A stretch of 26,067 bases of DNA from a virus. The first letter of the stretch is position 1; each line of letters begins with the position of its first letter. This document shows positions 1,843-20,624 of the stretch, in pieces. The notes under the pieces were generated by a model. It was given only the letters and a program-made list of their open reading frames with translations. It did no database searches and was not told the DNA's origin. The stretch spans positions 1-26,067 of the IMG/VR virus record IMGVR_UViG_3300017719_005669; one strand, written 5' to 3'. Position numbers and translations under genes: made by a program.

Positions 1843-3135
1843 ATGTCACAAGTATCTTTAACTCCAATCCCAGTTGACGGCGGAACTATTGTTGACCTGT
1901 CGACTGCTGGATATTGTCAAATGGGCAATGGTCAATATTTTGTTGTTTATGCCCAAATTAATCCGAATCACGTGTTTGGTTGCCTTTACACTGTAACTGG
2001 AGAGGGAACAAGTTCTCCTTCTATTACAATTCAAAAGACGCAATCTATCGCAGGTATCGCACCATCAACAACGTCCGCAAGCCAACTTTCGTTTAGAGTT
2101 GCAAAACTAAATGACGACACGGTCGCAATTTTGGTTCAAGGAGGGACTTCTGCTAATGTGTACCCGATCCGAATTGATGCTGATGATGACAATAATATGT
2201 ATCAGGTAGATGATGAATACACTGTTAGTTCGATTGCAAGTCCGGCGTACATGACTATGATGTTTGAACAAGTTGCCGAGAACAAAGTTGCTTTCGGTTG
2301 GACAGAATTCAGCCCGACGGGCGACTCATACATGTATTGTCGACTTGATAAATTATCATTCAATACAAGTAATGATACTATGTCACGCATACAGATGAGT
2401 CTTCCTGGTTCAGGAAAGTTCATGGAAACCCAGGATCGCCCTTACGGATGGATAGGTTTGAAAGAAGTTAAAACTTCGCCAGGGACTTTCTACATAACAT
2501 ATTACTTGAACTATAGTTCGTCTATTTCTCAAAGCAATGGGTATATGATTTTCCGTAGCGATTTTTCTGGGGGTCAAGTATACGATGTGATGGCAAGAAC
2601 CGGTGGAAATCCACAGGATGGTGACCTAGGCGATCTCATGAATTCGCTGCCTATTGCATACTCGACAAGCGATTGGTATATGGTCGGTGAAGGAGTTGGA
2701 TATGTACATGGTGGATCTAGTAGCAATTCTGTACAGGATGAACGAAGTTTCGCCAGCGATATCGTGCGCGATTATAGATTAGATTCGAGTTATCTGGAAT
2801 GGCATCAGCTTGGTAACGACGATGAAAAGACAATGATTTATATTCATGCGAATCATGGAACTAGCAGTGGCACCGATCAGTGGTCTGATAATTCTGTTAA
2901 GCATCCATACACTTACAAACTTCGAGTACTGAAACCAGGAACTGGTACCACGTTAATCTGCTCTCCATCTACTTCTAACGCTATAACATTCTCTACAGGA
3001 TCAAGCGTAACGCCAATGACAACACAACCTGAGTCTTTTTATAAGATTAGCGAATCACTGATTGGCATGGTTGGTATAAAGAATAGAACTAGTAGTGCAT
3101 CTCACGAAATCGTAATGTGCTACCTTAAATTCTAA
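1843..3135 (+). CDS. Unrecognised beta-rich phage structural protein
   Basis: This 430-residue protein is not recognised by a family name. It has no signal peptide or membrane segment and is dominated by short beta-strand-like stretches separated by Gly/Ser/Asn/Asp turns. Several segments have the pattern 'K-x-N/D-D-x-V-A' (for example RVAKLNDDTVAILVQ near residue 90 and QVAENKVAFGWTEF near 145). These resemble successive propeller blades and echo the KIAV/KIYV blades of the upstream gene, but the match is loose. The ATG at 1843 is well supported by AAGGAG at 1830-1835 with a 7-base spacer, and an exact late promoter lies at 1810-1817. A strong intrinsic terminator follows the stop codon, so the gene may be transcribed on its own in late infection. 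A virion surface or receptor-interaction role is inferred from position only. Confidence 0.8.
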   Translation: MSQVSLTPIPVDGGTIVDLSTAGYCQMGNGQYFVVYAQINPNHVFGCLYTVTGEGTSSPSITIQKTQSIAGIAPSTTSASQLSFRVAKLNDDTVAILVQGGTSANVYPIRIDADDDNNMYQVDDEYTVSSIASPAYMTMMFEQVAENKVAFGWTEFSPTGDSYMYCRLDKLSFNTSNDTMSRIQMSLPGSGKFMETQDRPYGWIGLKEVKTSPGTFYITYYLNYSSSISQSNGYMIFRSDFSGGQVYDVMARTGGNPQDGDLGDLMNSLPIAYSTSDWYMVGEGVGYVHGGSSSNSVQDERSFASDIVRDYRLDSSYLEWHQLGNDDEKTMIYIHANHGTSSGTDQWSDNSVKHPYTYKLRVLKPGTGTTLICSPSTSNAITFSTGSSVTPMTTQPESFYKISESLIGMVGIKNRTSSASHEIVMCYLKF

Positions 3136-3238: not shown

Positions 3239-6200
3239 ATGACAGACGTAAAAATATCGCAACTACAGGAATTGAATCAGGTTGGTGATAAAGACACCCT
3301 GATTGTTAACGACGCAAGTGACGGTGGCAGAACCAAGAAAGTAAGAAAAGAAAATCTATTCGCTGACACTGTTAAGAATGTCACCGATGATGGTAATGAC
3401 GCAGTTGTAAATCAAGACCTGATTGTAAATAACGACATTGAGGTTGGCGGAGACGTTCGTGCGACAGGCGAACTCAGTTTCGGTAAGTTACGTGATCACG
3501 TCACACAAGTTACAGTAAACGGCATTGTAGATAATGCTGACGATTTTCTAGCACTCGACTCTACGATTCCTACCTCTGGTGCGATCCGAGGTTATGTTGT
3601 TGACACCATGGCGGAGATGGGTGTTGGCGCACTTAACGATAAGATCGAAGGTCTGCGGTACGATATCTATTCAAAAGACTCTGCGTTCATCGAGGACGTA
3701 ATTACCACGGCGAACCTTCCTCTCGTAGGAAGAATGGACATTGACAGTGACAACCTCGCTACACTGGAAGGCGAGTTTGATCAATTTAAGATTGATGTTA
3801 ACAGAGATATTGGCAACAACAATTCAACGTTGAGCAATTTAAATTCTCGTATGGGAACTGCCGAGTCTGGCATTAGGACTCTTACTAATACAGTTGCTTC
3901 TCTTGACACTGATCTGTCATCTAGAATTGATCTTACAAATATCAATCTCGGATTGCTTACTAATCGTGTTTCAACCAACGAGTCAGCAATTCTTTCCCTA
4001 GACTCTGCGCTACAAATAGAAATAGAAGCAAGACAACAGGGCGACGCCAACCTTGATTCTGATTTGACAGCAGAAACCAATGCCAGAATAAATGCTCTTA
4101 GCGCACTTTCTGGTGACCTCGATTCTGAGAAGGGCGATCGTTTCGCAGCAATCAATGACCTTATTTCACGCCTCGATTCTGAAAAGGATGATCGTCTTGA
4201 TGCAATCGAAAGTGTGCTGGCACAACTGGATTCTGAAAAGGATGACCGTCTAGGTGCAATCGAAACTGTACTTGCACAACTGGATTCTGAGAAAGACGAC
4301 CGCCTCGATGCAATCGAAACTGTACTTGCACAACTGGACTCAGAAAAAGATGACCGTCTAGGTGCAATCGAAGATTTATTGTCAGAACTCGATTCAGAAA
4401 GACTCGACAGAATCAACTCAGTTGAAAATGTATCTTTAAACCTTGATTCAGAAGTCAGCGACCTTCTTACTAGATTAGACTCAGAACGTGCAGATAGAAT
4501 ACAATCAGACGCCGACCTTTTAGACCTAATCGACTCTGAACGTGGCGCAAGGATTTTAGGCGACGCTGCTATACAAAGCAACCTTGACTCAGAAGCGAGA
4601 GCACTTTCTCTCACTATCTCTAATCTCTCTTCTAAAGTTGATTCTGAAACATCGAATCGTCTTGACGCAATCGAAGACCTGCTCGATTTACTTGACTCCG
4701 AGCGATCAGATAGAATTATCGATAACCAGGGTATACAGACCGGACTTGATTCGGAAATCTCAGCACGTATCGATGCACTGTCAGAACTAACCAGTTCGCT
4801 TGATTCCGAAAGAACCTCGCGCCTTGCCGACGAACAATCGTTACGTCAAGATTTAACAGATCTAATTAATCAGGGCGACTCGGATACGCTCGCGAGCGCG
4901 AAGGCGCATGACACGCTACTCATTGGCGACGCGTCAATTGATGGGACTTCCGGTAACACTGTAGTAGAAAGAATTGACTCGGCAAGAGACTATGCTATAC
5001 AGCAAGCAGCGAATACTGTCGGCATCGAAAACTCTGATAGAATCGCAGCAGACTCTGATCTACGAGCACAGATTGACGCAGAAGAACTACGCGCCAAAGG
5101 TGAAGAGCATCGCATTGAGCAGAAAATTAATAACGTCATAACCAACACAGATCCTGCTGCCATAGACTCGTTGACTGAAATCGTCAACTACCTCAACGAA
5201 GTCGACAGCGATGTAAGGGATCTCGTTTCATCTAACACTTCTAGAGTATCTGACGAAGCTTCTGACCGTATAACAGGTGACTCGGCGCTTAGTGCTAAGA
5301 TTGATCAAGAAACCTTAGCGCGTAAAGCGGGAGACTCTGACTTACAAGATGCTGTAAATACAAGAATTGATCAAGAAATCTTAGCACGTAGAACAGGTGA
5401 CTCCGACTTACAAGATGCTGTAAATACAAGAATTGATCAAGAAATCTTAGCACGTAGAACAGGTGACTCCGACTTACAAAATGCTATAAATGCGGCAGAT
5501 TCTGATATCAATGCAAGAATAGATCAAGAAGTTTTAAATCGCCTCTCGGTCGGAGAAGATCTACAAGATAACATCGATTCTGCTAGATCAGAACTCATTA
5601 ATAGAATTGAGCAAGAGGAATCGCTCAGGGCGGTAGGAGACTCTGCTACGCTTTCTGCTGCTCAACTATACACTCGTCAACGCGATGCATTAATGATCGG
5701 TGACGCGACTGTAGACGGTACAGCAGGAAACACAATTACCTCACGTATTGCTACAGCAAAACAAGAAGCAAACACATATACTGATAACGAAATTATTGGA
5801 CTGAAATCAGGAGAGGTCACATCTCTGACCTCAAGAATGGACTCGGCAGAGAGCAGACTGGATGACGCCGAAACAGCACTCGACTCGGCGACTGCTCGCT
5901 TAACAAATATTAACAAGACCCTCAGCGATCTGATTGACTCTGAATCTCAACGAGCAATCGGAGTCGAAGGGAATCTTCAAAGTCAGATTGATTCAGGTCT
6001 AGGTCGTACACTGAACTTAGAATCAGACTTGACCAGCATGATAGACTCGGAAACGCAACGAGCAATTGGAGTCGAAGGGAATCTTCAAAGTCAGATTGAT
6101 TCGGCAACACTGCGACTAACCAACATTAATCAAACTCTTGACGGTCTTATTGATTCAGAAATGAACCGTGCCCTTGATGTCGAATCAGAATTGAGAGGAC

Positions 6201-9200
6201 TTATTGATTCTGAGTTGAGTCGCGCGATTGACGCAGAGCGTTTCTTACGAGACCTTATCGATTCAAGTCTATCGCTTTCTATCAACGCTGACTCAGATAT
6301 CCGCCTCGACATTGATGCGAACACAGCAGCGATTGACTCGGAGATAACCCGAGCGATTCGTGTTGATGGCGAATTACAAGGTCTGATTGACTCTGCAACG
6401 CTACGATTGACTGGCATCAACGAGACTCTTAGTGACCTAATTGATTCTGAGATGAACCGTGCGTTAGCAGTAGAAGGATCTTTACAAAGTCAGATTGATT
6501 CAGGTCTAAGTCAAACATTGAATCTAGAGTCTGACCTCCTCAGTAGAATCGACTCTAATTCAACTTCTATCGCTGACGAGATCGCGCGAGCACTTGAAGC
6601 GGAAGGCGATCTACAAGATCTGATTGACTCGGAGTCCACAAGAGTCACTGACATCAACAAAGAATTGAGCGACCTAATTGATTCTGAGACTCAGCGAGCG
6701 ATTGATGTTGAAACAAGATTGCAAGATCAGATTGACTCAGGACTCGAACGTTCAGTCAACCTTGAATCAGACTTGCTAGGAAGAATTGACTCGAACGCAA
6801 CCTCTATCGCTGAAGAAATAGGCAGAGCGATTTTGGTAGAAGAAGGTTTGCAGGATGCGATTGACTCTGCGACTAGTCGCCTAACAAATATTAACCGTAC
6901 TCTGTCTGACCTCATTGATTCTGAGATGACTCGCGCGATGGGTGTCGAGTCAAGGTTACAGGGTCAGATTGATTCGGGTCTCGAGCGATCTGTGAATTTG
7001 GAGTCTGACCTCCTCAGTAGAATCGATTCCAACTCAACTTCTATCGCTGATGAGATTACTCGTGCGATTCTTGCCGAAGGTGATTTACAGAGCGGAATCG
7101 ATTCAGCAACATCGCGGTTGACTAATATCAACAAGAATCTCAGTGATCTGATCGACTCAGAAATGAATCGCGCATTGGATGTTGAGAAAGAATTACAAAG
7201 TCAGATTGATTCGGGTCTAAGTCGATCGATCAACCTTGAAGCAGACTTAACTAGCATGATTGATTCGAATGCAACAGACATTCGAGCGAACAGTGCATTG
7301 ATCAACCAGGAAATAGCACGCGCGATTCTTCGTGATTCTGAACTCAGCACTGCTATAACACAAGAAGCGGCAACAAGATATGGCGCTGACTCTGCACTAC
7401 AAATTAACATTGATGCTGTAAACCGCAGGGTTGATGGATTGTTAGACAGTGCTCCTGGTGATTTGGATACAATCTTAGAAATCATCGAAGCGTTCAGAGA
7501 TGCGGATAGTGATCTCAAAACGCTAATTCAAGATAACTCTTCAATATTATCAACCCTGAATACTGACGTCGGTATCCTACAAGGAGAGATGGACGACGCC
7601 GAAGATATTCTTGATGACCTTCAACCAAGAATGGATTCGGCAGAGAACCGTTTAGATTCTCTCGAAGGAAGAACCTCAGTCGGTGAGTCAGATGTTGCAG
7701 ATCTTCAGAACAGACTAGGATCTGGACTACTCGACACTGTTAACCAAGTAATTATTCCTTCTATCAACGAACTACACGGCGAGCACGATCTAGTTGAAGG
7801 TCGTGTAACAGCAGCAGAATCTGATATCGCAGCGAACTCATTGTACAATCTGACTGCCTTTGACTCAGTTATCTCAAGAATACAAATTACAGAAGGTCGA
7901 CTGGACTCAAACTCTGCAGTATTGGTTGATGTCCTTAGTGATATTGTTTCATTACAACTCACTGACTCTGCGTTAGACGCAAGGATCTTAGCGAACGACA
8001 GCGATATCGCGCTGCTTGATCTAAGAGTTGACGGTAATGACTCAGATATCGATACAATTAGAACAACCATACAGAATATAAAAGGCGGTAAGCAGGTTCT
8101 TCGTGAAACGAATCCTCTTACAGTCAGCGATGACACTATCACGTTACACCTCGCTGATGACACTAGTGTCAGCGTTACAGTTAACGATAACTTCTTAACT
8201 GGTATTTCACTAGATCCAACAACAGGTGTTCTGACTGGATTCCGAAGAGACGGTCAAACTGTTTCGACTGGGTTTGATAGCAGATATGTACACAATCAAA
8301 GCAGTCAAGCATTGCGTGCTGTCAATCCTATTACCGTTGACAACGATACAATTACGCTTCACTTGGCAGATGGAAATACTGCACAGGTAACTGTTGACGA
8401 TTCAGATGTTAACAACTTCGTCAACGGGTTGACGTTTAATTCGTCAGACGGTGTGCTAACAGCATCGCGCTCTGGATTACCTGATTTGAATGTGACACTT
8501 GATGGACGTTATCAACCAACGGGTAGTTATGTCACTACTAATAGCGCACAGGCGTTAGACCCAACTAACCCGATCACTGTGCTTAACGACACCATCACTC
8601 TGAACCTAGCAGATGGAAATTCGGTAGCAGTAACTGTCAACGACAACTTCTTGACTGGTGTTGCATTTAATACAACAACAGGTTTCCTAACCGCAGTTCG
8701 AAATGATGCTGGATTAGTAACAGTTAGTTTGGATGGACGCTATGTTGAGAAGACTAGCACTCAGGCACTTGATCCAACAACACCATTAACGGTTGATGAC
8801 GACACGCTTACATTACATCGTGGCGACGGAAGTTCTGTCAGCGTTTCGGTTGCTGATAATCAGGAACTTGAGTGGGATAGTGCTACTGGTGAGTTGAGCA
8901 TTTCTAACGGAAACTCAGTAGACCTCGATGGGCGTTATGTTGAGCAAACCAGCGTTCAAGCATTGCCAACAGGTAGCGCGTTGTCGGTCAATGACGACAC
9001 GATTACTTTGACACGTGCAGATGGTACTGTTGAATCAGTAACGATCTCTGACGCAAACACTAACACTTATGTCACTGACCTTTCTATGGATTCTTCTCTA
9101 GGCGAGATATCTATTACACGAAACGACGGTGGCACTTTCCTACTTAACTTGGCAGATGTTTTAGTTAAGAGAAACAGTCCTCAGGCACTTGATCCTGACA

Positions 9201-12200
9201 CTCCGCTATCAGTTAGCGACGACACAATTACTTTACATCGCGCAGATGGAACTTCAGTTAGTGTCACGATTGATGACGAATTTTATCCAGACGATCAGAC
9301 CTTGAGTTGGAACTCAGGTACAGGCGAAATAACAATCACCGATGGTAATACTATTGACATCGATGGACGTTACGTTGAACAAACCAGTTCTCAAGCGTTA
9401 CCGTCAGGACCTGCGTTGGCGGTCAATGACGATACGATCACTTTGACTCGAGCGGATGGTACAACTGAATCTGTTACGATTTCTGATGCGAACACAAATA
9501 CTTATGTGACAGCAGTCGCGTTGAACGGTAGCGGAGAACTTACTGTAACAAGAAACGATGGTGGTTCGTTTACGGTTGACTTAGAAAGTCATTTCGTATC
9601 GAAGACTAGTGCACAGGCGCTTCATCCAACGAATCCATTAACGGTGAGCGACGACACAATTACTCTGAACCGAGCAGACGGTACTTCGGTCAGCGTTACG
9701 GTTGATGATGAGTTTTATACAGATCAAGATCTAAGTTGGGATGGAACTAAGGGCGAACTTTCCATATCTGATGGAAACACTGTAGACCTTGATGGTCGTT
9801 ATGTTGAGCAAACCAGCGCTCAAGCATTGCATCCGACTAACGCATTAGAAGTGAATGATGATACAATCACTCTTTACAAAGCAGACGGTACATTCGAATC
9901 TCATTCTATCATTGATGCAATCGGAACTGATTATTTCATCACAGGTTTATCATTCAACACTAATAATGGTACGCTGACTGGATCTCGTAATGACGGGAAT
10001 ACGGTCTCAACGAACTTCGATGGACGTTATGTAAATCAGAACAGTGTACAGGCACTACGTGCTAACACTCCACTGACTATTAGTGGTGACACTATTACAT
10101 TACATCGTGCTGACGGTACATCTATCAGCGTTGATATAGACGACGAGTTTTATCCTGACGATCAAACAATTTCTTGGAACGCTTCTTCAGGTGAGTTGAC
10201 TATATCAGATGGTAACACTGTCGATATCGATGGACGTTATACTCAAACCACAAGCGCACAAGTTTTACGAGAAACGAACGCAATCGCAGTTAATAATGAC
10301 ACGATTACGATTTACAAGGGCGACGGCACTTCTGAGTCAGTTACAATCAGCGATGCTAACACTAACACTTATACAACGCATTTCGAATTGAACGCTGATG
10401 GTGAACTTAAACTCACCAGAAATGATGGCGGGATATTCACTATTGACTTAGAAAGTCATTTCGTCGATAAAGCAGGAGCGCAAGCATTACACCCTACTGA
10501 CGCGTTGAGGGTCAGCGGAGATACAGTCTATCTGTACAAGGGCGACGGTACCCACGAAGAAGTTACCATCGATGACAATAACGATTATATCACTGGCGCG
10601 TCATTTACTGGTGGTACGCTTGCTCTAACTGGACTGGGTGCTGCGGGTGCTTCAGTCAGTTTGGACGGTCGTTATCAACCAGTTGGTAGTTATGTTACAA
10701 CAACAAGTGCCCAAGCGCTGCATCCTACTAACGCGCTGGAAGTAAATGACGATACGATTACAATTAACAAGGCAGACGGTACTTCAGAAAGTCATGATAT
10801 CTCTGACGCGCTTGGTACCGACTACTTCATTACAGGTCTGTCATTCAATACATCAGATGGTGTATTAACCGGAACACGCAACGACGGTAATTCAGTGACT
10901 GCCTCGCTTGATGGTAGATACGATAATTATGTAAATTGGAAATTGACTGACGGTTCAACAACTGAAAGCATTTCCTCCGGCGAAACTATCACGGTTTCTG
11001 GCGGCGATAATGTCACCACAACGTTGTCAACGTCGACGAATACATTGGAGATTAGTGCTGAGAACGATTTCGTCACTGGTGCGTCATTTAGCAACGGTAC
11101 TCTGTCATTGACCGGAACAGGAGACGCAGGTGCTTCGGTAAGTCTGGACGGTAGATATGTCGAACAGACAAGTCCTCAGGCACTACGTTCGACCAACCCT
11201 CTGACAGTTAATAACGACACGATTACACTTCACCTCGCTGACGGAACTACGGATACAGTAACAATCAGCGACGAGAATACTAACTTCTACATCAACGCTG
11301 CTACGTTTAGTGGCGGTACTCTGTCGTTGACTGGTGTCGGTGCAGCAGGTGCTTCGGTTAATCTTGATGGTCGTTATGTTCCTAATGATGGAGCACAAGC
11401 ATTACATCCTACTGATGCGCTGAGAATATCTGGCGACACAATCACGTTGTACAAAGGTGACGGAACCTACGAATCAATTACAATTGATGATGAACACTAT
11501 CATTACCAGAACCTTTCTTTCAGCGGTGGTCATAGTGGTACAGGAGTTCTTTCGATTTCTAACGGAAACTCAGTAGACCTCGATGGGCGTTACGTTCATC
11601 AGACAAGTTCTCAAGCGTTACCTGCAGGCGCGGCACTTGCAGTTAGTAATGACACAATTACTCTGACGCGTGCAGATGGTACTGTTGAATCAGTAACAAT
11701 TTCTGACGCAAACACTAACACTTACGTCACTTCTTTATCGTTCAATGATGGAGATGGTACGCTAGCAATCGGTAGAAACGATGGTGGCAGTTTCTCTGTT
11801 GATCTCGATGATCGATACGTACATAGTCAGAGTCCACAGCTACTCAGAGCAACGAATCCTCTTACAGTCAGCGGCGATACAATTACGCTTCACATGGCAG
11901 ACGGATCGACAGATGCTGTAGAGATCGACGACGATTTCTTCCCAAATCAAGACCTGAGTTGGAATGGAGCAAACGGGCAACTATCCATCTCCAACGGTAA
12001 CACTGTTGACCTTGATGGACGCTATCAACCTGCCGGTGATTATGTAACAACCTCACACGTTCAGGCGCTACATCCAACAGACGCGCTGCAGGTTAATAAC
12101 GATACAATTACTCTGAAGAGAGCGGACGGTACAACTGAATCTGTTACAATCAGTGACGCAATTGGTACTGACTATTTCGTTACAGGAATATCGTTTAATA

Positions 12201-14089
12201 CTGGTAATGGAGTTCTTACTGCTAACCGTAATGATGGTCAGACATTGACGACTGACTTTGATGGTCGATATGTTGAGCAGACTAGTGCTCAAGCACTTCG
12301 CGCTAGTGATGCGTTGACAGTTAGTAACGATACAATTACAATTCACAAGGGGGACGGTACTTCCGAATCTGTAACGATTAGTGATTACTTCGAATATGAT
12401 GATCAGACACTCAGTTGGAACGGTTCTACTGGTAAACTTACGATCTCTGACGGAAATACAGTTGATCTCGATGGTCGCTATCTGCTACAGGGAACATACG
12501 ACAATTATGTTTCTTGGAACTTGTCAGACGGTTCTACTTCAGAAGTAGTAACATCAGGTGAAACTATCACGATTGCTGGTGGATCTAACGTCAGTACATC
12601 AATGAACACGACCAGTAATACGCTTACGATTAGTTCAACTGACACCAACAATTATCTTTCAAGCGTTTCGTGGAATGCTTCTACTGACGAAATCGCGTTC
12701 GGTCGACATGGTCTGAGCAATTTATCGGTTGATCTAGGTCTGTCAGAAAGATTCGACAAGTACAGTCACTGGACAATCAGTGATGGAACCAATACCGAAA
12801 ACATCATCTCTACTCAAACGCTGAAGATTGTAGGCAGCGGCGGTGCTAGCACTTCTTACAGTGCTAGTGCTAATACTCTGACTGTCACTTCGGCGAACGA
12901 CTTCATTACTGGAGCTTCGTTTAATTCAGGAAACGGTATTTTATCGCTCACTGGAACTGGTGGCGCAGGTGCTTCGGTTGATCTGGATGGACGATATCTG
13001 CTAAACGGAACATACGATAACTATGTTTCTTGGAATTTAAAGAATGGATCCGCCACCGAAGCAGTTACTTCTGGTGAAACTATTGAGTTCGCAGGAAGCG
13101 GCGCAAGTAGCGTTTCGTACAGCGCTTCAAGTAAGAAAGTAACAATTAGTTCAACGGATACTAACAATTATGTCAACAGCGCAAGTTTCAGCGGCGGTAC
13201 ACTTACTTTGGGCGGTGTCGGCGCAGCAGGTGCTTCGGTTAGTCTTGATGGACGCTACCAGATAGCAGGAAGTTATGACAACTACAATCATTTTAAAGTG
13301 AAGGTTGGATCAAATAACACTGACAACATCTACTCAGGAAATACGTTGAACTTCTTGTCAGGCGGCGCAACGTCATTAGGATATAATGCTGGCACGAACA
13401 CGGTAACGATTTCTTCTACTGACACTAACACCGACACGAACAACTACCTTGACGGTGCTTCGTTTAATACGAGTAACGGTATTCTAACAATGTCGCGCGC
13501 AGGTCTGGGAGACGTAACAGTTGACCTTGACGGTCGTTATGCGACAAGTAATACAGATACAACATATGATTTGTATGCTTCTACGAGTAATACTATTTCC
13601 GGAGCGGCGATTACATTAGATCCGAGCAGCGGGACTTCTGATCAGGTATGGTTACAAGGCGGCAATAATGTTTCAGTAAGTCGCGTTTCTAGTAATCAAA
13701 TTAACATCGCTTCTACTGATACAAACAACTATGTAACTAGCGGCAGTTACAGTGCTGGTACTGGTAAACTGACATTACATCGTCAAGGGTTGTCCTCTAT
13801 CGATGTGACGATTGGTAGCAACAGCAACAACTACCTTGACGGCGCTTCGTTTAACACTAGCAATGGTGAACTGACCTTGGGTCGTAGCGGTTTGTCTAAT
13901 ATTGTTGTTGACCTTGATGGTCGATACTCAACTACAGATACAAATACGACTTATTCAACAGCAACCTCTTCGACGCTGGGACTTGTCAAGATTGGTTACA
14001 CCGAGAACGGCAAGAATTATCCAGTCGAACTTTCTAGTGGAAAGATGTTCGTTAATGTCCCATGGACCGATACAAATACTAATACATGA
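3239..14089 (+). CDS. Giant tail fiber protein, ends at an in-frame TGA
   Basis: The protein has 3,616 residues, far longer than T4 gp34 (about 1,290) or gp37 (about 1,030). Residues 1-130 form a compact domain paralogous to the start of the 15857-18727 gene (shared KNVTD, DLIVNNDI and IPTS motifs) and are probably the docking end. Residues about 150-1,610 are helical repeats of 18 residues beginning [LI]DS, a likely trimeric coiled-coil shaft. Residues about 1,616-3,616 are beta modules: 19 copies of 'Q-A-L ... DTITL..ADG' and 19 exact DGRY motifs plus variants. The later part also carries DNYVxW and 'TDTNNY' units typical of phage fibers. ATG at 3239 follows a late promoter; the ribosome site is weak (AGGA, 3225-3228). 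The frame stops at TGA 14087-14089 but remains open beyond it into an S74 chaperone domain. This looks like one gene interrupted by a stop codon. Fiber identity is firm; which T4 fiber it replaces is unknown. Confidence 0.9.
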   Translation: MTDVKISQLQELNQVGDKDTLIVNDASDGGRTKKVRKENLFADTVKNVTDDGNDAVVNQDLIVNNDIEVGGDVRATGELSFGKLRDHVTQVTVNGIVDNADDFLALDSTIPTSGAIRGYVVDTMAEMGVGALNDKIEGLRYDIYSKDSAFIEDVITTANLPLVGRMDIDSDNLATLEGEFDQFKIDVNRDIGNNNSTLSNLNSRMGTAESGIRTLTNTVASLDTDLSSRIDLTNINLGLLTNRVSTNESAILSLDSALQIEIEARQQGDANLDSDLTAETNARINALSALSGDLDSEKGDRFAAINDLISRLDSEKDDRLDAIESVLAQLDSEKDDRLGAIETVLAQLDSEKDDRLDAIETVLAQLDSEKDDRLGAIEDLLSELDSERLDRINSVENVSLNLDSEVSDLLTRLDSERADRIQSDADLLDLIDSERGARILGDAAIQSNLDSEARALSLTISNLSSKVDSETSNRLDAIEDLLDLLDSERSDRIIDNQGIQTGLDSEISARIDALSELTSSLDSERTSRLADEQSLRQDLTDLINQGDSDTLASAKAHDTLLIGDASIDGTSGNTVVERIDSARDYAIQQAANTVGIENSDRIAADSDLRAQIDAEELRAKGEEHRIEQKINNVITNTDPAAIDSLTEIVNYLNEVDSDVRDLVSSNTSRVSDEASDRITGDSALSAKIDQETLARKAGDSDLQDAVNTRIDQEILARRTGDSDLQDAVNTRIDQEILARRTGDSDLQNAINAADSDINARIDQEVLNRLSVGEDLQDNIDSARSELINRIEQEESLRAVGDSATLSAAQLYTRQRDALMIGDATVDGTAGNTITSRIATAKQEANTYTDNEIIGLKSGEVTSLTSRMDSAESRLDDAETALDSATARLTNINKTLSDLIDSESQRAIGVEGNLQSQIDSGLGRTLNLESDLTSMIDSETQRAIGVEGNLQSQIDSATLRLTNINQTLDGLIDSEMNRALDVESELRGLIDSELSRAIDAERFLRDLIDSSLSLSINADSDIRLDIDANTAAIDSEITRAIRVDGELQGLIDSATLRLTGINETLSDLIDSEMNRALAVEGSLQSQIDSGLSQTLNLESDLLSRIDSNSTSIADEIARALEAEGDLQDLIDSESTRVTDINKELSDLIDSETQRAIDVETRLQDQIDSGLERSVNLESDLLGRIDSNATSIAEEIGRAILVEEGLQDAIDSATSRLTNINRTLSDLIDSEMTRAMGVESRLQGQIDSGLERSVNLESDLLSRIDSNSTSIADEITRAILAEGDLQSGIDSATSRLTNINKNLSDLIDSEMNRALDVEKELQSQIDSGLSRSINLEADLTSMIDSNATDIRANSALINQEIARAILRDSELSTAITQEAATRYGADSALQINIDAVNRRVDGLLDSAPGDLDTILEIIEAFRDADSDLKTLIQDNSSILSTLNTDVGILQGEMDDAEDILDDLQPRMDSAENRLDSLEGRTSVGESDVADLQNRLGSGLLDTVNQVIIPSINELHGEHDLVEGRVTAAESDIAANSLYNLTAFDSVISRIQITEGRLDSNSAVLVDVLSDIVSLQLTDSALDARILANDSDIALLDLRVDGNDSDIDTIRTTIQNIKGGKQVLRETNPLTVSDDTITLHLADDTSVSVTVNDNFLTGISLDPTTGVLTGFRRDGQTVSTGFDSRYVHNQSSQALRAVNPITVDNDTITLHLADGNTAQVTVDDSDVNNFVNGLTFNSSDGVLTASRSGLPDLNVTLDGRYQPTGSYVTTNSAQALDPTNPITVLNDTITLNLADGNSVAVTVNDNFLTGVAFNTTTGFLTAVRNDAGLVTVSLDGRYVEKTSTQALDPTTPLTVDDDTLTLHRGDGSSVSVSVADNQELEWDSATGELSISNGNSVDLDGRYVEQTSVQALPTGSALSVNDDTITLTRADGTVESVTISDANTNTYVTDLSMDSSLGEISITRNDGGTFLLNLADVLVKRNSPQALDPDTPLSVSDDTITLHRADGTSVSVTIDDEFYPDDQTLSWNSGTGEITITDGNTIDIDGRYVEQTSSQALPSGPALAVNDDTITLTRADGTTESVTISDANTNTYVTAVALNGSGELTVTRNDGGSFTVDLESHFVSKTSAQALHPTNPLTVSDDTITLNRADGTSVSVTVDDEFYTDQDLSWDGTKGELSISDGNTVDLDGRYVEQTSAQALHPTNALEVNDDTITLYKADGTFESHSIIDAIGTDYFITGLSFNTNNGTLTGSRNDGNTVSTNFDGRYVNQNSVQALRANTPLTISGDTITLHRADGTSISVDIDDEFYPDDQTISWNASSGELTISDGNTVDIDGRYTQTTSAQVLRETNAIAVNNDTITIYKGDGTSESVTISDANTNTYTTHFELNADGELKLTRNDGGIFTIDLESHFVDKAGAQALHPTDALRVSGDTVYLYKGDGTHEEVTIDDNNDYITGASFTGGTLALTGLGAAGASVSLDGRYQPVGSYVTTTSAQALHPTNALEVNDDTITINKADGTSESHDISDALGTDYFITGLSFNTSDGVLTGTRNDGNSVTASLDGRYDNYVNWKLTDGSTTESISSGETITVSGGDNVTTTLSTSTNTLEISAENDFVTGASFSNGTLSLTGTGDAGASVSLDGRYVEQTSPQALRSTNPLTVNNDTITLHLADGTTDTVTISDENTNFYINAATFSGGTLSLTGVGAAGASVNLDGRYVPNDGAQALHPTDALRISGDTITLYKGDGTYESITIDDEHYHYQNLSFSGGHSGTGVLSISNGNSVDLDGRYVHQTSSQALPAGAALAVSNDTITLTRADGTVESVTISDANTNTYVTSLSFNDGDGTLAIGRNDGGSFSVDLDDRYVHSQSPQLLRATNPLTVSGDTITLHMADGSTDAVEIDDDFFPNQDLSWNGANGQLSISNGNTVDLDGRYQPAGDYVTTSHVQALHPTDALQVNNDTITLKRADGTTESVTISDAIGTDYFVTGISFNTGNGVLTANRNDGQTLTTDFDGRYVEQTSAQALRASDALTVSNDTITIHKGDGTSESVTISDYFEYDDQTLSWNGSTGKLTISDGNTVDLDGRYLLQGTYDNYVSWNLSDGSTSEVVTSGETITIAGGSNVSTSMNTTSNTLTISSTDTNNYLSSVSWNASTDEIAFGRHGLSNLSVDLGLSERFDKYSHWTISDGTNTENIISTQTLKIVGSGGASTSYSASANTLTVTSANDFITGASFNSGNGILSLTGTGGAGASVDLDGRYLLNGTYDNYVSWNLKNGSATEAVTSGETIEFAGSGASSVSYSASSKKVTISSTDTNNYVNSASFSGGTLTLGGVGAAGASVSLDGRYQIAGSYDNYNHFKVKVGSNNTDNIYSGNTLNFLSGGATSLGYNAGTNTVTISSTDTNTDTNNYLDGASFNTSNGILTMSRAGLGDVTVDLDGRYATSNTDTTYDLYASTSNTISGAAITLDPSSGTSDQVWLQGGNNVSVSRVSSNQINIASTDTNNYVTSGSYSAGTGKLTLHRQGLSSIDVTIGSNSNNYLDGASFNTSNGELTLGRSGLSNIVVDLDGRYSTTDTNTTYSTATSSTLGLVKIGYTENGKNYPVELSSGKMFVNVPWTDTNTNT
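4118..4441 (+). repeat. Six tandem 54-base (18-residue) coiled-coil units
   Basis: Six consecutive 54-base units start at 4118, 4172, 4226, 4280, 4334 and 4388. Each encodes 18 residues of the form LDSEKDDRLxAIExVLxx. The middle units differ mainly at synonymous positions. Eighteen residues equal five turns of an ideal alpha-helix, so hydrophobic positions stay on one face along a straight rod. They lie inside the giant fiber gene. Confidence 0.93.
5333..5464 (+). repeat. Near-perfect 66-base tandem duplication
   Basis: Two adjacent 66-base units (5333-5398 and 5399-5464) differ at one base, GACTCT versus GACTCC. Part of a third copy begins at 5465. Each encodes 22 residues (DSDLQDAVNTRIDQEILARRTG pattern, shortened here to key motifs DSDLQDAVN and IDQEILARR). 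The near identity at synonymous sites points to a recent duplication within the fiber shaft. Confidence 0.93.
6386..7333 (+). repeat. Four 237-base (79-residue) higher-order shaft repeats
   Basis: Units begin at 6386, 6623, 6860 and 7097, exactly 237 bases apart. Each encodes 79 residues made of four subunits of 18, 18, 18 and 25 residues. The subunits begin IDSAT or IDSES, IDSEM or IDSET, IDSGL, and IDSN with the motif TSIADEI (TDIRANS in the last unit). The 25-residue subunit equals 18 plus one heptad. A related but differently spaced unit begins at 6095. Confidence 0.88.
8090..13935 (+). repeat. Array of beta-strand fiber modules (QAL / DTITL / DGRY)
   Basis: This region encodes 19 diverged copies of 'Q-[AVL]-L-x(5-8)-[VI]-x(2)-DTITL-x(2)-[AG]DG', most closed by a DGRY motif (19 exact, plus DSRY, DDRY and two ESHF variants). 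Two module types alternate: one with VTISDANTNTYVT and RNDGG, the other with 'DDEFYPDDQTLSW' followed by SISDGN. From about 10918 on, a third type starting DNYVxW joins. Some copies share long stretches of identical DNA. Confidence 0.87.
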
Positions 14090-14284
14090 TATTCATTCAG
14101 TTTCCTTGACAATAACGATGGTGCAGATGATGTAACATTACGCGTTACTGCTGGCGGATCCGGATCTGGAACGACAGACCTTGAGTTCGAAGGTAATAAT
14201 AACATTACATTTACTTCGCCAGGGTCAAATAGGATTAGTGCGTTAATTGCTAATAACTCAGTCGGTAATGCTAAACTCGCCAAC
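14087..14284 (+). other. In-frame TGA and open 65-codon bridge to the chaperone domain
   Basis: TGA at 14087-14089 ends the giant fiber frame. The next 65 codons (14090-14284) contain no stop in that frame. They encode fiber-like sequence (VTLRVTAGGSGSG, NNSVGNAKLANM) that runs straight into the ATG at 14285. The bridge holds no ATG, GTG or TTG in that frame, and no Shine-Dalgarno sequence lies before 14285. TGA is used as a normal stop by other genes here (18727, 19062, 24857). A nonsense change, a sequencing or assembly error at one codon, or true readthrough could explain it; the sequence alone cannot decide. Confidence 0.85.
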
Positions 14285-15019
14285 ATGGCCAGCGGAACAA
14301 TCAAGGGAAGAGTCGCGGCTGGTACAGGAGACCCCCAAGATCTATCAGCAGAGCAAGTAAGAACTCTGCTTAATATTACAGATACAAACGATTACATTAA
14401 TGACGCGACGTTCAACACAGGTAGTGGTGTGCTCTCTCTGACAGGTTCAGGTTCGGCAGGAGCGTCGGTTGATCTGGATGGGCGTTATTACGTTCGCGGT
14501 GATCACGTTGATCTGAACGATGATAAGAAGGTTCAGTTCGGTACTGGCGATGACTATGAGGTTTCGTTCAACGGAAGTCACTTGTATATTCACCAGAATC
14601 AAAATACTGCTAATGACATTTACATCACTAATGTAGCGGAAGCTAACAAATTCTTCTTTAATGTCTCTACTGGCGATTTCCATGCTGATGGCGATATCAT
14701 CGCATACTCCAACTCGGTATCTGATGAGAAGTTGAAGGAAAACATCACGATCGTCGAGAATGCTGTGGATAAAGTGCAGCAACTTCGCGGCGTAGAGTTT
14801 ACTTGGAAAAAGGACGGCGAAAAGTCTGCTGGTGTGATCGCACAAGATGTCGAGAAGGTTCTTCCTCAGGCAGTCAAGGAAAAGGATATCATGGGCGAAG
14901 GCGAAGTCGTTAAGACTGTCAACTATGATACCATGAGTGCTCTGTTTATTGAAGCGATCAAAGAACAGCAAGAACAGATTGAAGCATTAAAGGCAGAAAT
15001 CAAAGCGTTAAAGGAGTAA
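14285..15019 (+). CDS. Fiber C-terminus with S74 intramolecular chaperone domain
   Basis: The 244-residue open frame is the probable C-terminal part of the giant fiber. Residues 1-30 carry the fiber motif IKGRVxAGTGDPxDL and residues 40-69 another beta module ending DGRYY. Residues about 146-244 are an S74 (endosialidase-type) chaperone domain. Its Ser146-Asp147 and Lys151 match the SDxxxK self-cleavage arrangement (SDEKLK), and the sequence GVIAQDVEKVLPQAV is characteristic. The last 25 residues form a heptad coiled coil. In this family the domain drives trimer folding of the fiber and then cuts itself off. ATG 14285 is the first possible start after the TGA but has no ribosome site, so independent translation is doubtful. 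The natural reading is residues 3,683-3,926 of one protein starting at 3239. AAGGAG at 15011-15016, inside the end of this gene, serves the next gene. Confidence 0.87.
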   Translation: MASGTIKGRVAAGTGDPQDLSAEQVRTLLNITDTNDYINDATFNTGSGVLSLTGSGSAGASVDLDGRYYVRGDHVDLNDDKKVQFGTGDDYEVSFNGSHLYIHQNQNTANDIYITNVAEANKFFFNVSTGDFHADGDIIAYSNSVSDEKLKENITIVENAVDKVQQLRGVEFTWKKDGEKSAGVIAQDVEKVLPQAVKEKDIMGEGEVVKTVNYDTMSALFIEAIKEQQEQIEALKAEIKALKE

Positions 15020-15022
15020 GAG

Positions 15023-15814
15023 ATGGCACTTCCTGCTTCTGGACAGATTGGGTTCGGTCAGATTATCACTGAGTTTAAAGGTACAAATAATCAAACCGAA
15101 AATGAGATCAGCGATTACTACTCAGGTGCTGGTCTCGTTACATCAACAACTGGACCAAACGTTCCGACTTCCGGCGAAATACGTTGGAGCGACTTCTATA
15201 ATGCATCGAACGTCTCTGGCACGGCGGATACGTCATGGAGTATGAATTGGGATCTTCAAAATTCTGTCAGCGCGACGAGCGGTTATACCGAAGCATACGG
15301 ATGGGTACAATTTTCTCGAGAAGATACAAACAATCGCGTGAAGATTAACTGGGCGGATGGCACTTCTACTACACAGGCAACAGTATATACTGGATATGTA
15401 ACACATAGCAATCTAGGGACGATTACTTCAATTGAAGCGCAGTATAATGTATCATCGCAATCTTGTAATAGTAATTGTGCAACAATGGGTAGTAATGGAA
15501 TTCCTAATGATGGTAGTTACACTCCTACACTGTTTGGTTATAGCAGCGGGACATATTACACCGTTCCAAGTTCTGGAGGATTAAAATTTGAATGGTTGGC
15601 GCAAAGTAATCCGAATCAAAACCTTACTGGCGAGATAGGTGGGGCATTCCCTATGGTCATAGGAGGTGATCCTCATTTTAGAATAAAGATTGTTTCAAGC
15701 GCAGGAACATTCTATTCTGTTTGTAGCGTTACTGCGACAAATATTTCCCTTTCCGCTAGTAATGGCAGTACCAATACCGGTGGGTTTGGTGGCGGTAATT
15801 TTGGTGGCACTTAA
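15023..15814 (+). CDS. Small fiber-like structural protein with glycine-rich tail
   Basis: The 263-residue protein begins MALPASGQIGFGQI and continues with ISDYYSGAG and VPTSGEIRWSDFYNAS. This N-terminal module recurs in structural or fiber-like proteins of marine phages, where the usual form is 'ISLSEYY...PTSGxISxSDFY'. The middle (residues about 70-240) is beta-rich with four Cys (two in the short motif SCNSNC near residue 148), unusual in this Cys-poor region. The C-terminus is glycine-rich, ending GGFGGGNFGGT. ATG at 15023 has AAGGAG at 15011-15016 with a 6-base spacer. It starts three bases after the S74 frame ends, so the two are probably co-transcribed. An accessory or tip role on the fiber is inferred from position and the Gly-rich end; function is otherwise unknown. 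Confidence 0.8.
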   Translation: MALPASGQIGFGQIITEFKGTNNQTENEISDYYSGAGLVTSTTGPNVPTSGEIRWSDFYNASNVSGTADTSWSMNWDLQNSVSATSGYTEAYGWVQFSREDTNNRVKINWADGTSTTQATVYTGYVTHSNLGTITSIEAQYNVSSQSCNSNCATMGSNGIPNDGSYTPTLFGYSSGTYYTVPSSGGLKFEWLAQSNPNQNLTGEIGGAFPMVIGGDPHFRIKIVSSAGTFYSVCSVTATNISLSASNGSTNTGGFGGGNFGGT

Positions 15815-15856: not shown

Positions 15857-18727
15857 ATGACGACAGATGATAAAGATGTAAGAATCTCAGAACTACAGAA
15901 AGTAGTCGAAGTCAGCGACGATGACATTCTCATCGTCAGTGACACCAGCTTGGGTAATAAAACACGAACCGTTCGCAAAGGCGACCTCCTAAAAGAAATC
16001 ACCAAGAATGTTACCGATTCCGGCGATAATGCTGTTGTCGCATCAGACCTTATCGTCAATAACGATATTACCTTATATGGCGATTTAAGAACAACAGGTA
16101 AAATATCGTTCGGTCAACTTGAAGACAGAGATAACGACGTCGTGGCATCTGGTATTGCGAATACCAGAGAGATGCTTTTAGAACAAGAGGATGCTATCCC
16201 AACTTCAGCAGCATTGCGCAGTTTCATGGATGGGCAATATAATTCAATACAGAGCATAGTCACCAGCGGATTACAAACAATTGAGGTCAGGATCGATCAA
16301 GACAGCGATTCTCTGTCAGCATTGTCGCAGTATACGCTGGCATTGGAAGCGGCATTGAACGCAGAAGACTCTGCATTTGCGACTGCTTTGCATCAATTAA
16401 CAGCATATGTTGAACATAATGACAGCGGAATATCTGCCTTATCACGACAGATAGTCGAGTTAAATGCAGTGATTGCATCTAAGGCATCGGCGAGTGCGTT
16501 ATCGTTGTTAGAAGCGAGAGTCAACGTTAGTTCCGACAGCATAAACCTCCTTTCACGCGACCTTGTAGAATTATCAGTTTCGCTCGATTCAGCATTTGAG
16601 CGACTCGATGGCATGAATTACATCATCGATAGTGCAGTGGGAAGAGCGCGAGAAGAACTGTCGACTCGTCTCGATTTAGACAGCGAGAGGTTAACAATCG
16701 AGTCACTAAAAATTGTAGACCTTCAATCAGAACTCGCAACTATTGATTCTGATTACATTGTCAATGCTACTGCTGATGCGAGAAGTCAACTTCGAACTCT
16801 GATCGACAGAACAGACAGCGACCTTACTATTTTATCGGATCAATTCTTATACCTAGAAGCGCGGTTGAGCACCATCGGAAACGATTCTTCTGTCCAAGAA
16901 GCACTCGCCACTGCAATTGACTCAGTATATGCGCGTATTGATCTGACTGACAGCGGTGTGACCGTTTTGTCTGGTAGAATGCAAGAATTTCAAGCAAGTC
17001 TAGAAACGATCGATTCTGACTTCATACAAAGCGCCACTGCTTCTGCGATTCAAGGCGTCAACTCTAGGATAGATCAGACTGACAGCGGTGTGACAGTATT
17101 AGCGGATCAAGTTTTAATACTCGAAGCAAGTCTAGAAACTGCTGGACTAGATTCATCATTCGTACAGTCAGCGATTGCTACCGCAGTTGATTCTGTATAT
17201 GCACGTATTGATCTGACTGACAGCGGTGTGACCGTTTTGTCTGGTAGAATGCAAGAATTCCAAGCAAGTCTAGAAACGATCGATTCTGATTTTGTCACCG
17301 ATGCGATGGCGACATCAATTCAGGGTGTCAACTCAAGAATTGATCAAACTGACAGCGGTGTGACTGTTTTATCAGAGCAGGTACTTTCGCTATCTGCTGC
17401 ATTATCTACTGCTGGTTTAGATTCAGATTTTGTCTTAGATGCTGTTGCTACTGCTACTGATTCAGTGATGGCAAGGATAGACTTGACCGACAGCGGTATC
17501 TCTGTCCTATCCGGTAGAGTACAGGAATTCGAAGCATCTCTCACCGAAGGCATTGACTCTGACCTAGTGTTGTCAGTTGTCGGCGGGGCAGTAAATGAAC
17601 TGTCAACTCGAGTAAATCAAGATAGCGATAGATTAACGGTTCTATCGCAGGATGTAACGACGCTTTCTGCTGCACTATCTACTGCTGGACTTGATTCAGA
17701 TTTCGTCTTAGATGCTGTTGCTACTGCTACCGACTCAGTAATGTCAAGGATCGATCTGACTGATAGCAGCATTTCAGTTTTGTCTGGTAGAGTTCAAGAG
17801 TTTGAAGCATCATTGACTGAAGGTTTAGATTCTGATCTTGTATTGTCAGTTGTCGGCGGGGCAGTTAATGAACTGACAACGCGTGTTAATCAAGATAGTA
17901 ACAGACTCTCGGTTTTATCACAGGATGTCACTACACTATCTGCAGAATTATCTAATGTAATTGATTCAAGTTTCGTCGTTGATGCTGTCGGTGATGCGGT
18001 CAGCGAATTATCAACAAGAATTGATCAGGATAGCGACAGTTTAACAATCCTCTCACAACAAGTTACCACGCTTTCTGCTGCATTAAGTAACACACTAGAC
18101 TCTGACTTCGTGTTGGATGCTCTAGCGACTGCCACTGATTCAGTTATTTCTAGAATCGATCAAACAGACAGTAGTCTTTCGGTTCTTTCCGGACGCGTAC
18201 AAGAATTTGAAGTTTCGCTTACAGAAGTGCTTGATTCTGACTTCGTTCTGGATGTTACTGGTCAGGCACTTAGCGACCTTTCGACCAGAATAGATCGAGA
18301 CAGTGATAGACTGCGCGTCGTATCGCAAGATGTCACTGAATTGTCTGTAGCGGTCGACAGCGACTTCGCAAGCATTAGTAGTACACTACAAACAATTGTC
18401 GACGATGATGGTAATGCTTCTGCAGTTTATGCTTTGAATCTCGACGTGAATAATCATATCGCAGGTATTCGTTTAGACAACGATGGCAACACCGCGAACT
18501 TCGCAGTAACTGCTGATACATTTAAGATTATTAATGCATCAGACAATGAGATTCAACCGTTCACTGTTGATGGCGATCAAGTTGAACTTTCTAATGCAAC
18601 AGTCACCGGCAACTTGGATGTAACTACTTCTGATGCCACGGGATCAATGAATATAAAAGGTAATTTAATTACAATAAGTGATGCCAACGGAACGGTTCGA
18701 GTTAAGTTAGGAGATCTATCCGCATGA
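15857..18727 (+). CDS. Second tail fiber with gpJ-like (DUF1983-type) C-terminus
   Basis: The protein has 956 residues. Residues 1-130 are paralogous to the start of the giant fiber: both have KNVTD, a DLIVNNDI motif, a TG-[KE]-[IL]-SFG motif and IPTS. This implies a shared docking site. Residues about 135-845 are repeats of about 45 residues (RID.TDSG[VI][ST]VLS motif) arranged in pairs of about 90. They resemble the 'RI...TDS.V..LS' stretches that precede the tip domain in lambda gpJ-like proteins. Residues about 848-956 (YALNLDVN, GIRLDNDG, FAVTADTFKI, PFTVDGDQV) fit the gpJ C-terminal tip family (DUF1983-type), which normally contacts the receptor or the central tail fiber in siphophages. 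The ATG at 15857 has only a weak upstream GGTG (15851-15854). Its stop overlaps the next start (ATGA), indicating translational coupling. Fiber assignment is firm; the family name for the tip is from motif memory. Confidence 0.87.
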   Translation: MTTDDKDVRISELQKVVEVSDDDILIVSDTSLGNKTRTVRKGDLLKEITKNVTDSGDNAVVASDLIVNNDITLYGDLRTTGKISFGQLEDRDNDVVASGIANTREMLLEQEDAIPTSAALRSFMDGQYNSIQSIVTSGLQTIEVRIDQDSDSLSALSQYTLALEAALNAEDSAFATALHQLTAYVEHNDSGISALSRQIVELNAVIASKASASALSLLEARVNVSSDSINLLSRDLVELSVSLDSAFERLDGMNYIIDSAVGRAREELSTRLDLDSERLTIESLKIVDLQSELATIDSDYIVNATADARSQLRTLIDRTDSDLTILSDQFLYLEARLSTIGNDSSVQEALATAIDSVYARIDLTDSGVTVLSGRMQEFQASLETIDSDFIQSATASAIQGVNSRIDQTDSGVTVLADQVLILEASLETAGLDSSFVQSAIATAVDSVYARIDLTDSGVTVLSGRMQEFQASLETIDSDFVTDAMATSIQGVNSRIDQTDSGVTVLSEQVLSLSAALSTAGLDSDFVLDAVATATDSVMARIDLTDSGISVLSGRVQEFEASLTEGIDSDLVLSVVGGAVNELSTRVNQDSDRLTVLSQDVTTLSAALSTAGLDSDFVLDAVATATDSVMSRIDLTDSSISVLSGRVQEFEASLTEGLDSDLVLSVVGGAVNELTTRVNQDSNRLSVLSQDVTTLSAELSNVIDSSFVVDAVGDAVSELSTRIDQDSDSLTILSQQVTTLSAALSNTLDSDFVLDALATATDSVISRIDQTDSSLSVLSGRVQEFEVSLTEVLDSDFVLDVTGQALSDLSTRIDRDSDRLRVVSQDVTELSVAVDSDFASISSTLQTIVDDDGNASAVYALNLDVNNHIAGIRLDNDGNTANFAVTADTFKIINASDNEIQPFTVDGDQVELSNATVTGNLDVTTSDATGSMNIKGNLITISDANGTVRVKLGDLSA
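16923..18330 (+). repeat. Paired 45-residue fiber repeats with 270-273 base period
   Basis: Repeats of about 135 bases are organised as double units. The block at about 16923-17027 recurs at about 17193-17297 (270 bases on) with a handful of base differences. A second block, GATGCTGTTGCTACTGCTAC at 17438, recurs at 17711 (273 bases on). The near identity of neighbouring units suggests recent duplication or gene conversion in the fiber shaft. Confidence 0.87.
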
Positions 18728-19062
18728 GTTACGGGTTAGAACTAAGAGACGCCAATGGGAATGTAACTCTTACAGTTGACGATAGAGTCGCATTCTTTTT
18801 AGATAAGAAGTCTGTTAACATAACAGATGGTACTTCTCAGACGTTTTCGTATACTCAAAACGTGATGGGCGCTTCTATGATTTCTGTGGCAATGAATACT
18901 GACACTAATGCTGGACAGTTTTCGTTGATGCCGTTTGCGGGACAAAGACTACTAGTTAATTCATCTAACAATACAGTCACCGTTTCTTATGATTCTACGA
19001 ACAAGCTTGGACCTAGTGCTCCTTCGGTGACTATGGAATTTATCGTATTTGGTGGCGGGTGA
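18724..19062 (+). CDS. Small MSYG-type tail-associated protein
   Basis: The 112-residue protein begins [20 protein letters not shown]. This matches a pattern seen in small tail-region proteins of many phages (MxYGxxVxxxxGxxxFD), often located just after a gpJ-like gene. The rest is beta-rich and ends in a Gly-rich FGGG. The start overlaps the preceding stop as ATGA, so it is probably translated by coupling with the gpJ-tip fiber. The next gene begins with the same MSYG[LF] motif one base after this stop, so the two are likely tandem paralogs with different C-terminal lengths. A role as an accessory protein of the fiber tip is inferred; no catalytic motif is seen. Confidence 0.8.
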
Positions 19063-19063
19063 T

Positions 19064-20134
19064 ATGTCTTACGGTTTCCAAGTATTAAACAACAACGGAT
19101 TCGTTCAGTTCGATACAAACCAAGACCTAAAACACATGATGAAGGTGCAGTCATACACCATATCAGTGGGATCGCGACCATTATCAGAATATTATTATGG
19201 GTTTTCTCCATACTATAGTTATGCTTACGGAAATTCGCAGGGTCCGATTTCTATAACACCCCCTTCTGCATTGGGTAGTTCTATAGTGAGACAGAGCGGA
19301 TCAGTTCAACAAAGATATTTTAAGCAAAAAAATATATTGATGGTAAGACCATCATCACGTTCTATGTATCCTTGTGCTATTTCTTGGAGTTCGACGGGGC
19401 ATATACATTGTTATTCTAAAGTTTCAGGATCTTTCATCATTGATGAATATGAATACGTCGGCGAAACTAACTTTAATGCTCAAGTATCTGCATTGGGAAC
19501 CAACAGGCATGCGCTTCAAGTATATGATACTAATGGCGACGTAACCTTTGACAGCGGTCTATTACCTACTCGTATTGCAGGAATCAATAGTCTAACATAT
19601 CCTAATACATCAACTCCTGTGTCTGGTTTGTTGAACAATAAACTTGACAAAAGTTTACACCTATTCGATCAAAGCGGTGGTGATGCAACTCAACAGAATT
19701 TCCCACAAGGTCTTGTCCGAACAACTTCCGGATTAAAGTGGAAAGCAGGAACTTCTTCTAACGATATTTGTACAGTTGTTGAAATGGTTGTAGAATTTAA
19801 TTATGCAAATCCGCCAGATCACATAGAATACTTCTTGTTTTCTGCGACAGGCACTACACCAGTTGTTCTTAATAGTGGTACATCGTCACAAACAAGTACA
19901 CCAGCACCGGCTCCGGCACCAACCCCTGCACCTGCACCTGCGCCGGAACCAGAACCTGAACCTGAACCTGAACCTCAACCTGAACCACAACCTGAACCTG
20001 AACCTCAACCTGAACCACAACCTGAACCTGAACCAGGATTCCCAGACTTCGGTGGCGGCGAAACGCCAGAACCTGAACCTGAACCAGATCCAGGGTTCCC
20101 AAACGATGGTAGCGGTAACTTTGGGAATGTCTAA
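19064..20134 (+). CDS. MSYG-type tail protein with Pro/Glu-repeat tail
   Basis: The 356-residue protein begins [17 protein letters not shown], similar to the preceding 112-residue protein and presumably a paralog. A second copy of the motif occurs near residue 147 ([17 protein letters not shown]), so the protein may hold two such domains. Residues about 279-324 are a low-complexity Pro-Ala then Pro-Glu/Pro-Gln stretch, which should be an extended, acidic stalk. The C-terminus is Gly/Pro-rich ([14 protein letters not shown]). ATG 19064 is preferred over TTG 19049, because it preserves the paralog's MSYG start and lies one base after the upstream stop. The stalk and Gly-rich end suggest a surface-displayed tip, which is an inference. 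Confidence 0.8.
19961..20020 (+). repeat. Perfect 30-base tandem duplication in Pro/Glu stalk
   Basis: Bases 19961-19990 and 19991-20020 are identical and encode [10 protein letters not shown]-type decapeptides. They sit in a longer 6-base-period tract of CCTGAA-like units from about 19940 to 20034. Such in-frame arrays can lose or gain units by slippage without shifting the frame. Confidence 0.92.
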
Positions 20135-20137
20135 ATA
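20130..20137 (+). promoter_or_regulatory. Possible late promoter (TCTAAATA)
   Basis: This sequence has one mismatch to TATAAATA. It overlaps the stop of the preceding gene and lies 25 bases before the ATG at 20163. A ribosome site GGAG (20149-20152) follows it. The spacing resembles the three exact late promoters, but a single 7/8 match in AT-rich DNA is weak evidence. Confidence 0.35.
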
Positions 20138-20162
20138 GAAATTAATTCGGAGTAATAAACAA

Positions 20163-20621
20163 ATGAGAGAGAAGGTATTTTTTATACGAGGCAACGGTGA
20201 GGTAGATCATGTTCTACATCCATCCTCGAACAATCATGAATATGTTGATGGAGATACCGATGACAACGGGCGTTTAATCAAGCACATGGACGAACACGTC
20301 GACATAGATCATTTTATTGTAAATAAGTATTGGGACTTCAACACATCAAGTTGGGAAAATCGAGATCAGGCACCTAATCAATATTATTACTGGGGTGGAA
20401 CATCGTGGATATTCAATCAAAGCAAGATAATGGAAATCGTACGCGCAGAAAGAACGCGTTTTCTATCTTCTTCTGATTGGACACAACTCCCAGACTCTCC
20501 ATTATCAACAGATGTGAAGAATACTTGGGCGGTATATCGGCAAGGATTAAGAGATATCACAGATAATCTAGATGGTATTGAAAGTTTAGATGATGTAATT
20601 TGGCCAACGAAACCAGAGTAA
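20163..20621 (+). CDS. Tail fiber assembly chaperone-like protein
   Basis: The 152-residue protein has a C-terminal domain (residues about 92-150) with the pattern RAERxRFLSSSDWTQLPDSPLSxxxKxxWxxYRQxLRDI and a final WPTKPE. This is the hallmark of the phage tail assembly chaperone family (Pfam Phage_tail_APC type), whose members help fold or trimerise tail fibers. Residues 1-90 are less conserved, acidic and rich in His and aromatics (HxDxDHFI, NQYYYWGG), and may bind the specific fiber partner. The start at ATG 20163 has GGAG at 20149-20152. Its place right after the fiber cluster fits a chaperone for one of those fibers. Note that the giant fiber also has its own S74 chaperone, so the partner here is more likely the gpJ-tip fiber or the MSYG proteins. 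Confidence 0.83.
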   Translation: MREKVFFIRGNGEVDHVLHPSSNNHEYVDGDTDDNGRLIKHMDEHVDIDHFIVNKYWDFNTSSWENRDQAPNQYYYWGGTSWIFNQSKIMEIVRAERTRFLSSSDWTQLPDSPLSTDVKNTWAVYRQGLRDITDNLDGIESLDDVIWPTKPE

Positions 20622-20624
20622 ATT

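Follow-up and report, generated by a model that had tools for sequence, protein, structure and literature searches.

The window (the whole stretch of DNA analysed, 26,067 nucleotides of a 26-kb virus record) carried a giant fibre gene and, in the same frame, an S74 intramolecular chaperone domain that was separated from it by one TGA. The 3,616 codons upstream of this stop contained no other stop, and from 14090 the fibre frame was open for 309 further codons, up to a TAA at 15017-15019. The position of the stop, the frame open into S74 as far as 15019 and the T following the TGA (the sequence reads TGAT) were all as originally predicted. The features of the locus were as follows.

3239 to 14089, + strand: ORF of the giant fibre, ending at the TGA (3,616 aa; from the ORF list)
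12896 to 14085, + strand: last fibre stretch colinear with the closest relative before the seam (87.6% DNA identity; dN/dS 0.155)
14087 to 14089, + strand: in-frame TGA (context ACA TGA T), at the cassette seam
14090 to 14389, + strand: swapped cassette lacking in the closest relative; its N-terminal module is YSFSFLDNNDGADDVTLRVTAGGSGSG... and its C-terminal module VGNAKLANMASGTIKGRVAAGTGDPQDLSAEQVRTLL
14285 to 14287, + strand: first in-frame ATG past the TGA, internal Met of an LANMASGTIK motif
14285 to 15019, + strand: ORF after the stop (244 aa; from the ORF list)
14390 to 15016, + strand: region colinear again with the closest relative, carrying S74 (86.8% DNA identity, 93% amino acid identity; dN/dS 0.094)
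14720 to 15016, + strand: S74 intramolecular chaperone (PF13884; profile match), beginning at the predicted autocleavage Ser

An open frame of this length past a stop was exceptional in the window: past the other stops the frame was closed again after 0-51 codons. The two exceptions, 15019 and 20621, are each followed by a real gene that shares the frame by chance. No in-frame ATG, GTG or TTG was found between the TGA and 14285, and a scan of the window detected no ribosome-site-like sequence for any start keeping the whole S74 domain, in agreement with the earlier claim that no start precedes 14285 and that the ATG there has no ribosome site. The sole such sequence (AAGGA) precedes the ATG at 14891, inside the S74 domain, and the LANMASGTIK motif, to which the Met at 14285 belongs, is conserved in other phages. 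Tandem repeats occur in the giant fibre gene at 4116-4453 and 5300-5491 (54/108 nt and 66 nt units).

The S74 domain matched PF13884 over its full length (E 1.6e-16, profile positions 1-58 of 58), and the PHROG matches of the S74 fibre were tail-fibre families. The predicted autocleavage Ser (codon 14720-14722) lies in the motif SDEKLK, with a Lys five residues further, and both residues were invariant in the S74 alignment (A2); the spacing equals that of the Ser1264/Lys1269 pair reported for T5 pb1 (PMC4690869). The C-terminal domain is shared with the K1F endosialidase, T5 pb1 and the phi29/GA-1 appendage (PF13884), and the C-terminal helix is rich in E/K, as in other fibres with an S74 intramolecular chaperone. 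The best match among solved structures was the distal subunit of the phage S16 long tail fibre (PDB 6f45; E 9e-10, residues 28-130), which was solved from an intact gene product, unlike the split S74 of the window. In the known S74 members and in the relatives examined fibre and chaperone are joined, whereas in the window a stop lies between them.

IMG/VR yielded a single close relative, IMGVR_UViG_3300028384_000675 (hereafter G001; 92.9 kb), which had a gene order in common with the window and was about 87% identical in DNA in the fibre region. Its fibre and S74 domain form a single uninterrupted ORF of 3,630 codons, which bears out the original view that the stop cuts one gene in two. Fibre and chaperone thus lie in one polypeptide in G001 but, with TGA 14087 read in the standard code, not in the window. 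Searches with the neighbouring genes (15023-15814 and 1843-3135) for further members of the lineage returned G001 again and distant loci without an upstream S74 fibre; bacterial genomes yielded two distant fibre matches, both without interruption, and annotated phages distant matches only.

DNA similarity to G001 ended at 14085, adjoining the TGA, and restarted at 14390. Between these breaks G001 has a different, slightly longer cassette, and neither cassette had a match in the other sequence. The bridge between the stop and the S74 region is therefore a swapped fibre tip cassette with the TGA at its upstream seam, although the seam was placed by the end of the BLAST alignment, which is good only to a few bases and limits the argument from coincidence. 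The location of the stop at the seam of an exchanged cassette is new here and was missed by the original prediction. The bridge had been read as normal fibre sequence. Its first module is common in phage fibres and its second half (VGNAKLANMASGTIKGRVAAGTGDPQ) is likewise a widespread fibre module, but with the cassette absent from the closest relative it is not a simple continuation of the fibre.

Other parts of the window also differed from G001. A second fibre-like protein (15857-18727), with a PF09327 tail tip domain, was about 34% identical to the N terminus of the giant fibre over 220 residues. Its C-terminal part and the genes up to 20622 had no DNA match in G001, suggesting that this second tip region was also exchanged. 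Within that region, ORF 19049-20134 ends in a Pro-Glu stretch encoded by an 18-copy CCTGAA repeat (19925-20034); this ORF was listed with a TTG start and may really start at ATG 19064. At the other end of the window, ORF 7-1797 encodes FG-GAP repeats, and its best G001 match was only 38% identical, compared with 78% for the neighbouring gene.

Of 120 distinct S74 domains surveyed, 59 belonged to ORFs that extended 450 residues or more upstream, 40 lay in frames open to the locus end and 21 in shorter ORFs. The window was the only one in which a single stop splits S74 from a long fibre in the same frame: no split fibre/S74 pair was present among the other 119 domains, and the other 20 of the 21 short ORFs had an ATG no more than 36 codons beyond the stop before them and seem to encode short proteins in their own right. 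Three loci (L012-L014) were considered as split candidates and rejected, being independent short fibres (262-308 aa) with a virion-anchor N terminus of their own.

The codon expected at the site of the stop was read from instances of the first cassette module (YSxSxVD...RLTAGGSGSG) gathered by profile, as the codon before the conserved Tyr. It was a sense codon in 105 of 106 distinct instances, the window being counted among the 106: Thr in 84, Glu in 14, Ile in 4, Ala in 2, Arg in 1 and a stop in the window, with no recurrence of a stop in the other 105. Most of the sense codons at the site (ACN, GAA, ATA, GCA) are at least two changes away from TGA, and the lone Arg was one AGA. The origin suggested earlier, TGG to TGA, is not favoured, as Trp was found in none of the 106 instances. 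A scan of viral contigs for GAYACNAAYACNTGRTAYTC (DTNT-(TGG or TGA)-YS) gave 111 stretches, and among the 80 loci read there was no fibre match, the seven matches with TGA lying in no open fibre frame and those with TGG lying outside long fibre ORFs.

The region past the stop is under strong purifying selection and was constrained for most of the divergence from G001 (dN/dS 0.094, dS 0.39, after the stop; 0.155, dS 0.41, before it), though in a two-sequence dN/dS a very recent loss and no loss look alike. No second lesion was found in the frame from 14090 to 15019, and no other obvious lesion was seen in the window genes comparable with G001. The constraint downstream and the lack of a further lesion indicate that the stop is recent, is absent from the real genome, or is bypassed.

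We give about an even chance (roughly 0.5) to a recent nonsense lesion at the module seam, separating the fibre from its cis chaperone. The stretch 3239-15019 would then form a single tail-fibre gene, in a phage whose baseplate is T4-like. The gene product would be a trimeric fibre folded in cis by the C-terminal S74 domain, which would then be cleaved off. Close to the tip, a different cassette would have replaced what lay between the DTNT linker and the last repeat, with a nonsense TGA exactly at the upstream seam. The mRNA would yield mainly a 3,616-aa fibre lacking tip cassette and chaperone and probably mis-trimerised at its end, the S74 region would not be translated independently, and the lesion would be recent, the part downstream being otherwise intact and still under apparent selection. 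By analogy with other S74 fibres, a product stopping at 14087 should not fold or mature normally. We infer that the phage itself carries the lesion, and that this arose with the exchange or on it: a seam position in a gene of about 3,900 codons, at a site where most of the sense codons are two or more changes away from TGA, points to an event at the junction more than to a random change of one base. This is an argument of plausibility, not proof; a single change could still account for the stop if it struck an uncommon codon (AGA, 1 of 106), and the seam junction was carried by one contig only. A phage that dominates its sample to the point of being assembled would, as a rule, require its fibre, which speaks against a lesion unless the fibre is dispensable, as are the L-shaped fibres of T5 and the side-tail fibres of lambda. 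In lambda PaPa, the tail fibre gene stf is inactivated by a frameshift; there, as in the window, an accessory fibre gene is broken and the rest of its frame is intact, whereas the break in the window consists of a nonsense codon where two modules meet and is known from one metagenomic contig only.

The main rival, which we regard as possible but less likely than the lesion, is a consensus or assembly error: the phage would have a sense codon in place of the TGA (14087-14089), and its fibre-S74 gene would be intact over 3,926 codons. It would account for the uninterrupted genes of all the relatives examined and for the strong selection downstream without a second lesion; the junction comes from a metagenome contig with no independent replicate, and repeat-rich fibre genes, of which this one with its several arrays is an example, are hard to assemble. 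A random change, however, would have had to strike the very codon at the seam, whose usual forms mostly need two changes, and a misjoin within the contig is not suggested, as exact repeats spanning the seam reached no more than 10 nt in the window, below usual assembler word sizes. Two further readings would let the fibre do without its S74 domain in cis. That the S74 part is a separate protein acting in trans, started at 14285 or elsewhere, is the least probable of all the explanations: short separate S74 proteins do exist, as in the three loci with short fibres described above, but those have an anchor domain and an ATG close past the preceding stop, and the fragment in the window has neither an anchor domain nor a start of its own with a ribosome site, the ATG at 14285 being an internal Met of a conserved module. 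It is hardly more credible that the fibre has lost S74 and folds with the help of a chaperone supplied in trans by the tail-fibre-assembly-like gene 20163-20621 (PF16778/phrog_4912). This gene is present in the window and had no match in G001, but it adjoins the second swapped fibre/tip region (18346-20622), which it more likely serves, and the S74 part is still constrained.

Leaky termination, whether through a host suppressor tRNA or through UGA readthrough of a basal or programmed kind, would yield a little complete fibre, with the short form as main product. Bacteria show basal UGA readthrough, and the 309 open codons under purifying selection are consistent with such a product; nevertheless, we consider this unlikely. 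The arrangement was conserved in no relative examined, the 120 nt past the stop folded no better than shuffles (z +0.65), and no Rfam match for a readthrough element was found near the stop, so that the conserved stop and the stimulatory structure or leaky context of programmed readthrough were both lacking. No tRNA gene was found in the window or in the 92.9 kb of G001 (weak evidence, the window being partial), so the suppressor tRNA envisaged in the original prediction was not found and its readthrough proposal gained no positive support. The same TGAT context terminates genes at 19062 and 24857, and a homotrimer would need three read-through chains in an excess of the short form lacking S74. 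An elaboration in which the UGA at the seam acts as a regulated or leaky switch, most fibres ending before the tip and a minority carrying cassette and chaperone, with mixed tips in the population, is very improbable. In the coat/A1 system of Q-beta, UGA readthrough extends a short coat protein that is the main product, and there too a UGA separates a structural protein from an in-frame extension; the window differs in having no conservation and no evidence of readthrough, and its extension is a chaperone rather than a minor capsid extension. Wholesale reassignment of TGA is unlikely, as originally argued, because TGA ends 4 of 13 ORFs in the window and 14 of 63 in G001, and the terminase small-subunit-like gene (24857) ends with TGA in both. 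The stop-codon-reassigned crAss-like phages (PMC11210395, PMC7886860) also have in-frame stops in structural genes, whereas the window has one in-frame TGA only, uses TGA to terminate other genes and has no suppressor tRNA that could be found. A literature search for S74 together with a stop codon, or for UGA readthrough in tail fibres, returned nothing.

The most likely explanation is therefore either a fibre gene broken not long ago or an error in a base, rather than a new mechanism, and no new mechanism is shown. If the stop is an error, it is a warning for the annotation of giant fibre genes in metagenomes. If it is real, one would expect the phage to rely on another receptor-binding protein. 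The locus offers a clear snapshot of fibre-tip module exchange with a frame break at the seam, and suggests how the exchange of a tip can disarm a fibre by parting it from its cis chaperone.
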